Shown: positions 3,685 through 49,597 of the stretch, piece by piece
Numbering within the stretch: the stretch's first letter is position 1
Layout of the letters: the number at the start of each line of letters is the position of its first letter
Source: an uncultured cyanobacterium
GTDB lineage: Bacteria > Cyanobacteriota > Cyanobacteriia > Cyanobacteriales > Geitlerinemataceae
DNA length: 64,000 nucleotides
Reading direction: 5' to 3'
Assembly: GCA_937899645.1 (NCBI GenBank)
Contig: CALCCD010000050.1
Span: 62,001 to 126,000, forward strand
Program-made: the position numbers and the translations under genes
The notes under the pieces: model-generated
Told to the model about the DNA's origin: nothing
The model's database searches: none
What the model saw: the letters and a program-made list of their open reading frames with translations, nothing else

Positions 3685-3696
3685 GCAAGCGCCTAA

Positions 3697-3812
3697 GAGC
3701 ACTGAGCGCAGTCGAAGTGCGATCTTGGAGAACTGGCTGACCGTGCCAGCCTATTTCATTCAGCACGATCGCCTCTAGCGCAAGACGCGCTTTGACTACG
3801 CTCAGCGCTCAT
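3697..3812. repeat. Inverted-repeat pair of GAGCRCTGAGCGNAGTCGAAGYGCG family
   Basis: Left arm gagcactgagcgcagtcgaagtgcg; right arm cgcgctttgactacgctcagcgctc. Confidence 0.65.
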
Positions 3813-3832
3813 TGAGCTTATCGAACATCCTA

Positions 3833-3965
3833 AGGGCACTCCACAAATATATTTGTCCAGAAGCCGCCAATGAAGGCTGAGCTTGTCGAAGCCTGGGGGT
3901 GACGCACTTCGACAAGCTCAGTGCTCGAATTCTGAATACTGGACATTTATTTCCGTGGAGTACTC
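3833..3965. mobile_element. 133-bp MITE-like element, copy 1, flanked by TA
   Basis: Imperfect ~26-bp terminal inverted repeats, internal palindrome gagcttgtcgaag/cttcgacaagctc; near-identical copy at 49445-49577. Confidence 0.8.
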
Positions 3966-3972
3966 TAAGTGC

Positions 3973-9356: not shown

Positions 9357-9668
9357 ATGTCTATTGCAGTTGGAATGGTGGAAACGCTCGGTTTCCCCGC
9401 TGTCGTGGAAGCCGCTGACTCTATGGTCAAAGCAGCCCGCGTCACGCTGGTCGGCTACGAGAAAATCGGCTCCGGTCGCGTCACCGTCATCGTTCGTGGC
9501 GACGTTTCGGAGGTTCAAGCCTCCGTCTCAGCGGGAACCGATGCGGCTAACCGCGTCAACGGCGGCCAAGTCCTCTCGACCCACATCATCGCTCGTCCCC
9601 ACGAGAATCTCGAGTACGTGCTTCCGATTCGCTACACCGAAGAAGTCGATCAGTTCCGTACTTACTAG
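9357..9668 (+). CDS. ccmK2: Beta-carboxysome shell hexamer CcmK2-type (BMC domain)
   Basis: [60 protein letters not shown] domain. Confidence 0.93.
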
Positions 9669-9835: not shown

Positions 9836-10177
9836 ATGTCAATTGCAGTTGGAATGATTGAGACCCTGGGCTTTCCCGCCGTTGTAGAAGCGGCAGATGC
9901 CATGGTCAAGGCCGCCCGTGTAACGCTGGTCGGCTATGAGAAAATTGGTACGGGTCGCGTAACGGTTATCGTGCGTGGCGACGTTTCGGAAGTGCAAGCA
10001 TCAGTGAATGCGGGCACGGAGAATGTCAAGCGCGTCAACGGTGGCGAAGTTCTCTCGACGCACATCATCGCGCGCCCTCACGAGAACCTCGAGTACGTCC
10101 TGCCGATTCGCTACACCGAGGCGGTGGAGCAGTTCCGCGAGAGCATCGGCGCACCGCGTACGATCGGTCGCCCGTAA
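9836..10177 (+). CDS. ccmK1: Beta-carboxysome shell hexamer CcmK1-type
   Basis: BMC domain closely similar to preceding gene, C-terminal extension [14 protein letters not shown]-like. Confidence 0.92.
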
Positions 10178-18048: not shown

Positions 18049-19070
18049 GCGATCGTGCGGATGCCGAGCGGCAGATAAGCGATCTTGGCGAGGCGGGGCT
18101 GCTGACACTCGTGAAAGGATTTTGTCCGCCGGAGCTGGTGGGCGATGATGCGGCGGTGTGCGCGGTGCGGGATGGGCACGCGCTGGTGGTGACGGCGGAT
18201 ATGCTGGTTGACGGAGTGCATTTTAGCGATCGCACGACCTCGGCTTACGATGCGGGCTGGCGGTCGATCGCGGCAAATTTATCGGACGTTGCGGCGATGG
18301 CGGCGACGCCGATCGGCGTGACGGTGAGTTTGGGGTTGCCGCCGGAGACGCCTGTGGTCTGGGTGGAGGCGCTGTATCGCGGGGCGACGGACTGTTTGCA
18401 GATGGGCGGTTTTGCTGTGCCGATTGTTGGCGGGGACGTGTGTAGCTCGCCGGTGCGGACGGTGTCGGTGTCGGCGTTTGGTGAAGTGAAACCGGGATTG
18501 GAGGTTCGGCGCGGTGGAGCCCGTGCGGGGGATGCGATCGTGGTGACGGGCGAGCATGGCCTGTCGCGGTTGGGGTTGGCGCTGTTGCTGGAGCCGGAAC
18601 GGGACGATTTACGGGCGATCGGCGCGGCGGATCGGGAACGGGCGATCGCGGCGCACCAGCGGCCTCGGCCTCGGTTAGACCTGGCGATCGAGCTGCAAGC
18701 GCTGCGGGCGGATGGTGCGGAGATCGCGGGGATGGATAGCAGCGACGGTTTGGCGGACGCGATCGAGCAAATCTGCGAGGCGAGCGGGGTGGGTGCGGTT
18801 GTCTGGGCGGAGGCGATCGGGGGGCTGGCGGCGCGGGGCGTGCCGGAGCAGATCGCGCTGGACTGGACGCTGTACGGCGGGGAAGATTTCGAGCTGGTGT
18901 TGTGTTTGCGTCGGGAGTTGGCGGAGCGGCTGCGGGTGTCGGGGGGGGCGATCGTCGGGCAGGTGACGGCGGAGCGGGAGATCGTGGTGCGCGATCGGGC
19001 TGGGCGGTTGGCTCCGGTGCAGTTGAGTCGGAGTTGGGGGTTTCAGCATTTCGATCGGGCGAATTCTTGA
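18045..19070 (+). CDS. thiL: Thiamine-monophosphate kinase
   Basis: [36 protein letters not shown]; overlaps panD stop by 4 bp. Confidence 0.92.
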
Positions 19071-19073
19071 CGT

Positions 19074-19282
19074 AACGTGAGTTCGGGATAAGAAAATCCG
19101 CTCAAATAACGGTATGCAGAGCATTCTGGTCGATGCAAAGCTCCTAGATTCTGGCTGATTGCCCGAATTTCGTGCAAATCGAGCCGATTGCTAGACCGAC
19201 GGCACACCGTTGCTCTAGCCACTGCGCCAAAAACAACGGTTTTTCGAGACTTTCAGCCGATTCCTTATCCCGAACTCACGTT
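19074..19282. mobile_element. 209-bp MITE-like element with TIRs and 5-bp target-site duplication
   Basis: Ends AACGTGAGTTCGGGATAAG...CTTATCCCGAACTCACGTT, flanked both sides by GACGT (19069-19073 and 19283-19287). Confidence 0.82.
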
Positions 19283-48391: not shown

Positions 48392-48401
48392 TCCGGTCGA
48401 T

Positions 48402-48540
48402 GAGCGCTGAGCGGAGTCGAAGCGCGGTCTTCGCTAAAGCACAACTATTGTAAGGACTCGTCAATTAAGAGTTCAAACAGAAAGCCTCTGACTCTATCTC
48501 TCTTTCCCCAAAGCCGCACTTCGACTCCGCTCAGTGCTCG
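48402..48540. repeat. 139-bp stretch bounded by inverted GAGCGCTGAGCGGAGTCGAAGCGCGG arms
   Basis: gagcgctgagcggagtcgaagcgcgg ... ccgcacttcgactccgctcagtgctc. Confidence 0.7.
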
Positions 48541-48583
48541 TTGACTTTTTTGTCGGTCGTTCGAGAAACAACACACGAAAGCT

Positions 48584-49423: not shown

Positions 49424-49444
49424 GTGCGTGCCGAGCTTGCTGTA

Positions 49445-49577
49445 AGAGTACTCCACAAATATATTTGTCCAGAAGCCGCCAATGAAGGCTGAGCTTGTCG
49501 AAGCCTGGGTGTGACGCACTTCGACAAGCTCAGTGCTCGAATCCTGAATACTGGACATTTATTTCCGTGGAGTACTC
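49445..49577. mobile_element. 133-bp MITE-like element, copy 2, flanked by TA
   Basis: Near-identical to 3833-3965, four mismatches by eye; ends agagtactccac...gtggagtactc. Confidence 0.82.
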
Positions 49578-49597
49578 TAAGAGCGCTGGGCCAGAGA

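Follow-up and report, generated by a model that had tools for sequence, protein, structure and literature searches.

A 132-bp non-autonomous transposable element (MITE) that has multiplied recently has a hairpin core shared by three MITE types in one genus; two copies of this element lie in the window, i.e. the whole 64,000-nucleotide stretch of DNA analysed. The types differ in the terminal inverted repeats (TIRs) and target duplications that frame the core. Frame 0 has GAG[T/C]ACTCCAC-type ends (GAGTACTCCA) and a TNA duplication, frame 1 has CAGGGCAAACGCA ends and 10-bp duplications, and frame 2 has AGACCTCTTGCA ends and ANT duplications. The presence of the core inside two unrelated MITE types besides the 132-bp element suggests that it can change its mobile ends. 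We consider it probable that the MITEs described here are modular, with hairpin cores that exchange TIR frames, and that the frame-0 form is inserted at TNA sites by an IS5-superfamily (IS1031-like) transposase acting in trans.

The 132-bp element and its copies

The features of the element in the window are presented in Table 1. The source genome is a cyanobacterial draft of 4.55 Mb in 134 contigs, in which a whole-genome search found 31 near full-length copies (90–100% identity) and about ten partial ones, several of which are truncated at contig ends. The initial annotation had described two copies of equal length with four differing positions and imperfect TIRs of about 26 bp; both points hold, with the size corrected to 132 bp and with 22 of the 27 TIR positions matching. 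Two subfamilies are seen, A (about 96–99% identical to the query) and B (about 92%), and the same genome also contains longer, older elements of about 176–190 bp with the ends of the 132-bp form. The element is short, non-coding, bounded by TIRs and dispersed in many copies. The 132-nt transcript has a predicted fold of -63.2 kcal/mol (z = -8.3); given this z and the 31 near full-length copies, copies and ends are far beyond chance. The palindrome GAGCTTGTCGAAG/CTTCGACAAGCTC noted earlier is present in the core, and the middle of the element is a palindromic hairpin module, not a decayed transposase gene. An Rfam scan of the window found one tRNA and nothing else.

Table 1. Coordinates of the MITE copies and associated features in the window.
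Feature	Position	Strand	Description	
MITE copy 2, subfamily A	49446..49577	+	132 bp, GAG...CTC	
MITE copy 1, subfamily A	3834..3965	+	132 bp; 4 mismatches vs copy 2	
Copy 2, left target duplication	49443..49445	.	TAA	
Copy 2, right target duplication	49578..49580	.	TAA	
Copy 1, target duplications	3831..3833 and 3966..3968		TAA	
Copy 2, left TIR	49446..49472	+	GAGTACTCCACAAATATATTTGTCCAG	
Copy 2, right TIR	49551..49577	-	minus strand reads GAGTACTCCACGGAAATAAATGTCCAG	
Copy 2, hairpin core	49484..49541	+	GAAGGCTGAGC...GCTCAGTGCTCGAA, 58 bp; common to MITEs with other ends	
IS982-type MITE without insert	19074..19282	.	related empty site for copy L021, which lies elsewhere in the genome	

Among 59 genomes the full element is present in this genome only, and two low-completeness congeners have matches to the core alone. 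Based on one window protein, the nearest named genomes, both cyanobacterial, are PH2015_06S_54_30 (73%) and RL_1_1 (71%).

Target duplication and mobility

Comparison of the flanks showed identical 3-bp TNA repeats around 26 of the 29 complete copies: TAA in 15, TTA in eight, TGA in two and TCA in one. The flanks of the other three are not identical (CAA/TAA twice, TAA/TAG once). The usual context is C-TNA-G, the outward neighbour being C in 16/28 copies on the left and G in 20/28 on the right. The element had initially been assigned to IS630/Tc1-mariner-type transposition on the grounds that TA stands at both ends. This is true of the two window copies, where TA is merely part of the TAA duplication, and it is the only point that speaks for a TA target: 11 of the 29 copies duplicate TTA, TGA or TCA, and those with TGA and TCA contain no TA, which excludes TA insertion. 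An IS630/Tc1-mariner MITE is thus a highly improbable reading, and the assignment was wrong. In the ISfinder scheme, TNA duplications characterise the IS1031 group of IS5 elements; the duplication seen here instead points to an IS1031-like system of the IS5 superfamily.

When the flanks of copy L021 are joined, the resulting sequence matches locus L168 and window positions 19065-19237 at about 69%, with the alignment running through the junction. The latter are part of the IS982-type MITE of Table 1, in which a single TTA is found and the insert is absent. An empty site, proposed earlier as a check, thus exists in a related form, once and in the same window. With about 30 dispersed near-identical copies and the target duplications, it bears out the view of a mobile MITE family. 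A gene neighbouring copy 1 is conserved in L083 to about 20 bp from the position of the element, with no MITE there; as the other flank of copy 1 does not align, this locus is only suggestive of an unfilled counterpart. Each of the neighbouring window segments 9357-9659 and 9836-10138 aligns twice, to the same two stretches, in L083 and L084; by their alignments they look like tandem paralogues.

A hairpin core shared by three frames

The core was compared through a family-wide search and 60 extracted regions; the genus sample consists of three genomes, two of them incomplete. The core GAAGGCTGAGC...GCTCAGTGCTCGAA is found in frames 0, 1 and 2 in this genome and in frames 1 and 2 in the congener G002, and one frame-2 copy is also present in G001 (L182). 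In G002, repeats with the same core have the ends CAGGGCAAACGCA...TGCGTTTGCCCTG, and others have AGACCTCTTGCATGAA ends. The frame-1 duplications of 10 bp are perfect in 9/20 elements and have one mismatch in five more, and the ANT duplications of frame 2 are identical in 13/16. The borders of the core are sharp in all three frames. Among elements picked by their likeness to the core, core identity between frames is 0.87–0.90 against 0.71 in shuffled sequences, whereas flank identity (0.68–0.73 against 0.68–0.70 shuffled) is at background. The letters common to the frames reach through the loop and the borders (GCCTGGGTG, GTGGCCGCAC, GTGCTCGAA). Elements of frames 1 and 2 vary in their content of two arm segments (each about 24 bp), which occur or are lacking in several combinations. 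With kinship ignored, variable bases match between the arms in 52/64 elements against 26 in shuffles, and in 23/35 against 15 when the young frame-0 copies are left out.

The reverse arrangement is seen outside the genus. When 391 genomes of the order were searched by pattern, similar ends with TNA turned up mainly in one other family (f33). In the elements that were read out, the frame-0-like ends enclose a different hairpin, GTCATTGCGAG...CTCGCAATGAC; a degenerate relative is located on a plasmid of Calothrix PCC 6303. Taking the frame comparison and the f33 hairpin together, three frames share one core, and two cores are found within one type of frame. The IS982-type MITE of the window (209 bp, complete, with perfect 19-bp ends AACGTGAGTTCGGGATAAG) shares its ends with the IS982-type IS at G000:C102 (L125) and lacks this core, which is therefore not a general feature of MITEs in this genome. 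A search of the open-access literature for the letters of the core or of the other hairpin gave no relevant match.

Candidate partner and donor transposases

The absence of a visible transposase with these ends from the window, as initially reported, extends to the draft genome: a search for TNA sites with the ends, for IS5-type domains and for inverted repeats around these domains found no IS with frame-0 ends, and none was found in the loci fetched from other genomes. The full-length IS that had been expected to share the ends of the element, and with it an IS1031-group transposase, was therefore not found in either set. It is possible that the partner was lost through an assembly gap or collapse. 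Several candidates were rejected. The IS5 at C123, the IS982 at C102 and the DDE_Tnp_1 gene at C13 have other ends or no frame-0 ends nearby. The DDE_Tnp_4 genes adjoining GAGTGATCC ends in G348 (L250, L253) belong to an IS in which a small MITE is nested, and such nesting is no proof of a partner. The ends beside the transposase gene of a Calothrix plasmid (L283) are those of a short MITE next to the gene, with no IS around it, and the hits L220, L223, L224 and L237 were judged to be chance.

For the other two frames, related transposases are seen. Concerning frame 1, an ISAs1-like transposase remnant adjoins the end CAGGGTAAACGCA in this genome (33 bits; ISAs1 is our own label, the Pfam match itself being DDE_Tnp_1). 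Concerning frame 2, two 901-bp copies of an IS with the ends of this frame and a DDE_Tnp_4 match are found in G343, from another family of the order, with AAT/AAT or ATT/ATT duplications.

Gene context

Gene context was taken from simple codon-based script calls, with the intergenic bases of the window as background. Copies between convergent genes are in excess (13 of 26 classified copies, against 19% of window intergenic bases; p = 0.0004), and those between divergent genes are few (2/26 against 34%; p = 0.002). This fits promoter avoidance and tolerance at 3' ends, both of which are reported for REPs (PMC3733652), and does not imply a function. The strong hairpin, located mostly between convergent genes (such as the window pair 48584-49423/49598-50839) or tandem ones, is probably tolerated at transcript 3' ends or acts on them. 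Several copies abut stop codons; preferential insertion into these was rejected (3/22 observed, 2.6 expected).

Proposed exchange of ends and alternative explanations

Two elements combine parts of two frames: L170 has half a core between an end of frame 1 and one of frame 2, and in L192 a frame-2 end is joined to subterminal sequence similar to that of frame 1. L170 could also have arisen by nested insertion and a later deletion. Between subfamilies A and B, 11 of 74 flank positions differ but none of the 58 core positions does (Fisher p = 0.0024), a conservation of the core that could also come from selection. The flanks closest to those of A and B are found in L074 and L070, respectively, both long-core elements, by small margins; as a trace of exchange this likeness in sequence is suggestive only.

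In the mechanism that we propose, an IS5-superfamily (IS1031-like) transposase would recognise the GAG[T/C]ACTCCAC ends in trans and insert the element at TNA sites, mostly C-TNA-G, with duplication of TNA. The core would pass between TIR frames by recombination or by replication template switching at the inverted arms, and several unrelated transposases, including ISAs1-type and DDE_Tnp_4/ISL2-like ones, would thereby spread one core lineage. We infer the mechanism of exchange, its direction and the frame-0 transposase. More tentatively, a selfish core may last by changing its mobile ends, with at least three unrelated DDE systems in one genus joined to it via the inverted arms.

The main rival to recombination or template switching at the arms, which we favour, is that the core inserts as one piece: being itself mobile and palindromic, either REPIN-like or akin to the cyanobacterial small dispersed repeats, it would have entered three kinds of MITE independently and would then have been spread by them. 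The sharp core borders in every frame agree with this, as do inverted arm pairs with other loops outside the frames (two of them in the window, at 3695-3830 and 48399-48545) and the precise insertion of SDR5-like small repeats into other repeats described in PMC4390886. The arrangement of REPINs, two short repeats in inverted orientation forming one unit, is seen both in the core arms and in these pairs. However, no precise core-less frame with a core-specific duplication was seen, and L170 and L192 join parts of two frames. The only Y1 transposase (RAYT-like) gene of the genome, at C103:98968, has no core arms in the 2.4-kb locus checked, so a RAYT partner is unsupported. We regard independent insertion as rather unlikely. 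It is more improbable still that the element simply derives from an IS by deletion and has one stable interior, the similar cores resulting from hairpin selection (e.g. at a transcript end) and a recurring palindrome. The bias towards convergent genes, the strong fold and the occurrence of such arm motifs in unrelated bacteria would all suit this explanation, but the letters common to loop and borders exceed the needs of pairing.

If ends can be swapped, as in the exchange that we propose, a repeat can do without its own transposase, which gives a testable route for the spread of palindromic repeats that have none. The finding of one core in three frames is also a caution against using interiors to classify MITEs.

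Relation to known repeats

MITEPsy1 of Pseudomonas syringae (PMC3189936) and BrickBuilt/MITEPgRS of Porphyromonas gingivalis (PMC4596501) are likewise short, TIR-ended and geneless with target duplications of a few bases, but they have other ends and 4-bp duplications in place of TNA. Nearly identical TIRs around unrelated interiors, so that a single frame holds different cores, are described for P. gingivalis in PMC4596501; one interior across the frames of different transposase systems is not reported for these elements in the excerpts of PMC3189936 and PMC4596501. An IS with matching ends is lacking for many bacterial MITEs. The type II MITEs of Anabaena sp. 90, which by definition are without a matching IS, resemble the present element by description, as they are cyanobacterial, mostly intergenic and hairpin-forming (PMC3542288). 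Nezha (Zhou et al. 2008, as cited in PMC10969869) is also a cyanobacterial MITE.

Like the core, REPINs of the REP–RAYT systems are inverted pairs of short repeats that form hairpins in intergenic positions near 3' ends (PMC3116915, PMC3733652). In contrast to REPINs, the core lies within DDE-type TIRs flanked by target duplications, and no core arms are found near the sole RAYT-like gene. To our knowledge, cyanobacterial small dispersed repeats such as SDR5 have neither TIRs nor a DDE-type duplication. SDR5-type repeats (Elhai et al. 2008, via PMC4390886) are small modules that other repeats may or may not contain, comparable to the arm segments of about 24 bp.

Other occurrences of core arms and nested elements

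The likeness of the core to stand-alone repeats, the most informative lead of the initial annotation, is correct. The two arm pairs of the window (TGAGCGNAGTCGAAG) stand alone, REPIN-like, around unrelated loops, and the pair at 3695-3830 sits just before copy 1. In G004, of the same family, runs of TGAGCTTGTCGAA with 14-bp spacing are found on contig C4 and others; here a single core arm has been multiplied in tandem at many places. Short, weak matches to the core arms (E 0.1 to 4) are also found in Sphingobium, Novosphingobium, Variovorax, Gloeothece and Anabaena plasmids, so the arm motif may occur widely in different phyla. In L163 (G000:C69:29600-31100), the core of a frame-2 MITE is split at CAGTG by a further short element, whose ends are AGACTTGTTGCGAAATAGC-like and which has an AGT repeat on either side, a case of nesting within the core. 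A 147-bp element at L160 673-819 (G000:C37) has frame-1 ends around another hairpin interior (AGCAGGCGAAGACGCCTGCGCTACGG...) and directly adjoins a frame-2 MITE.
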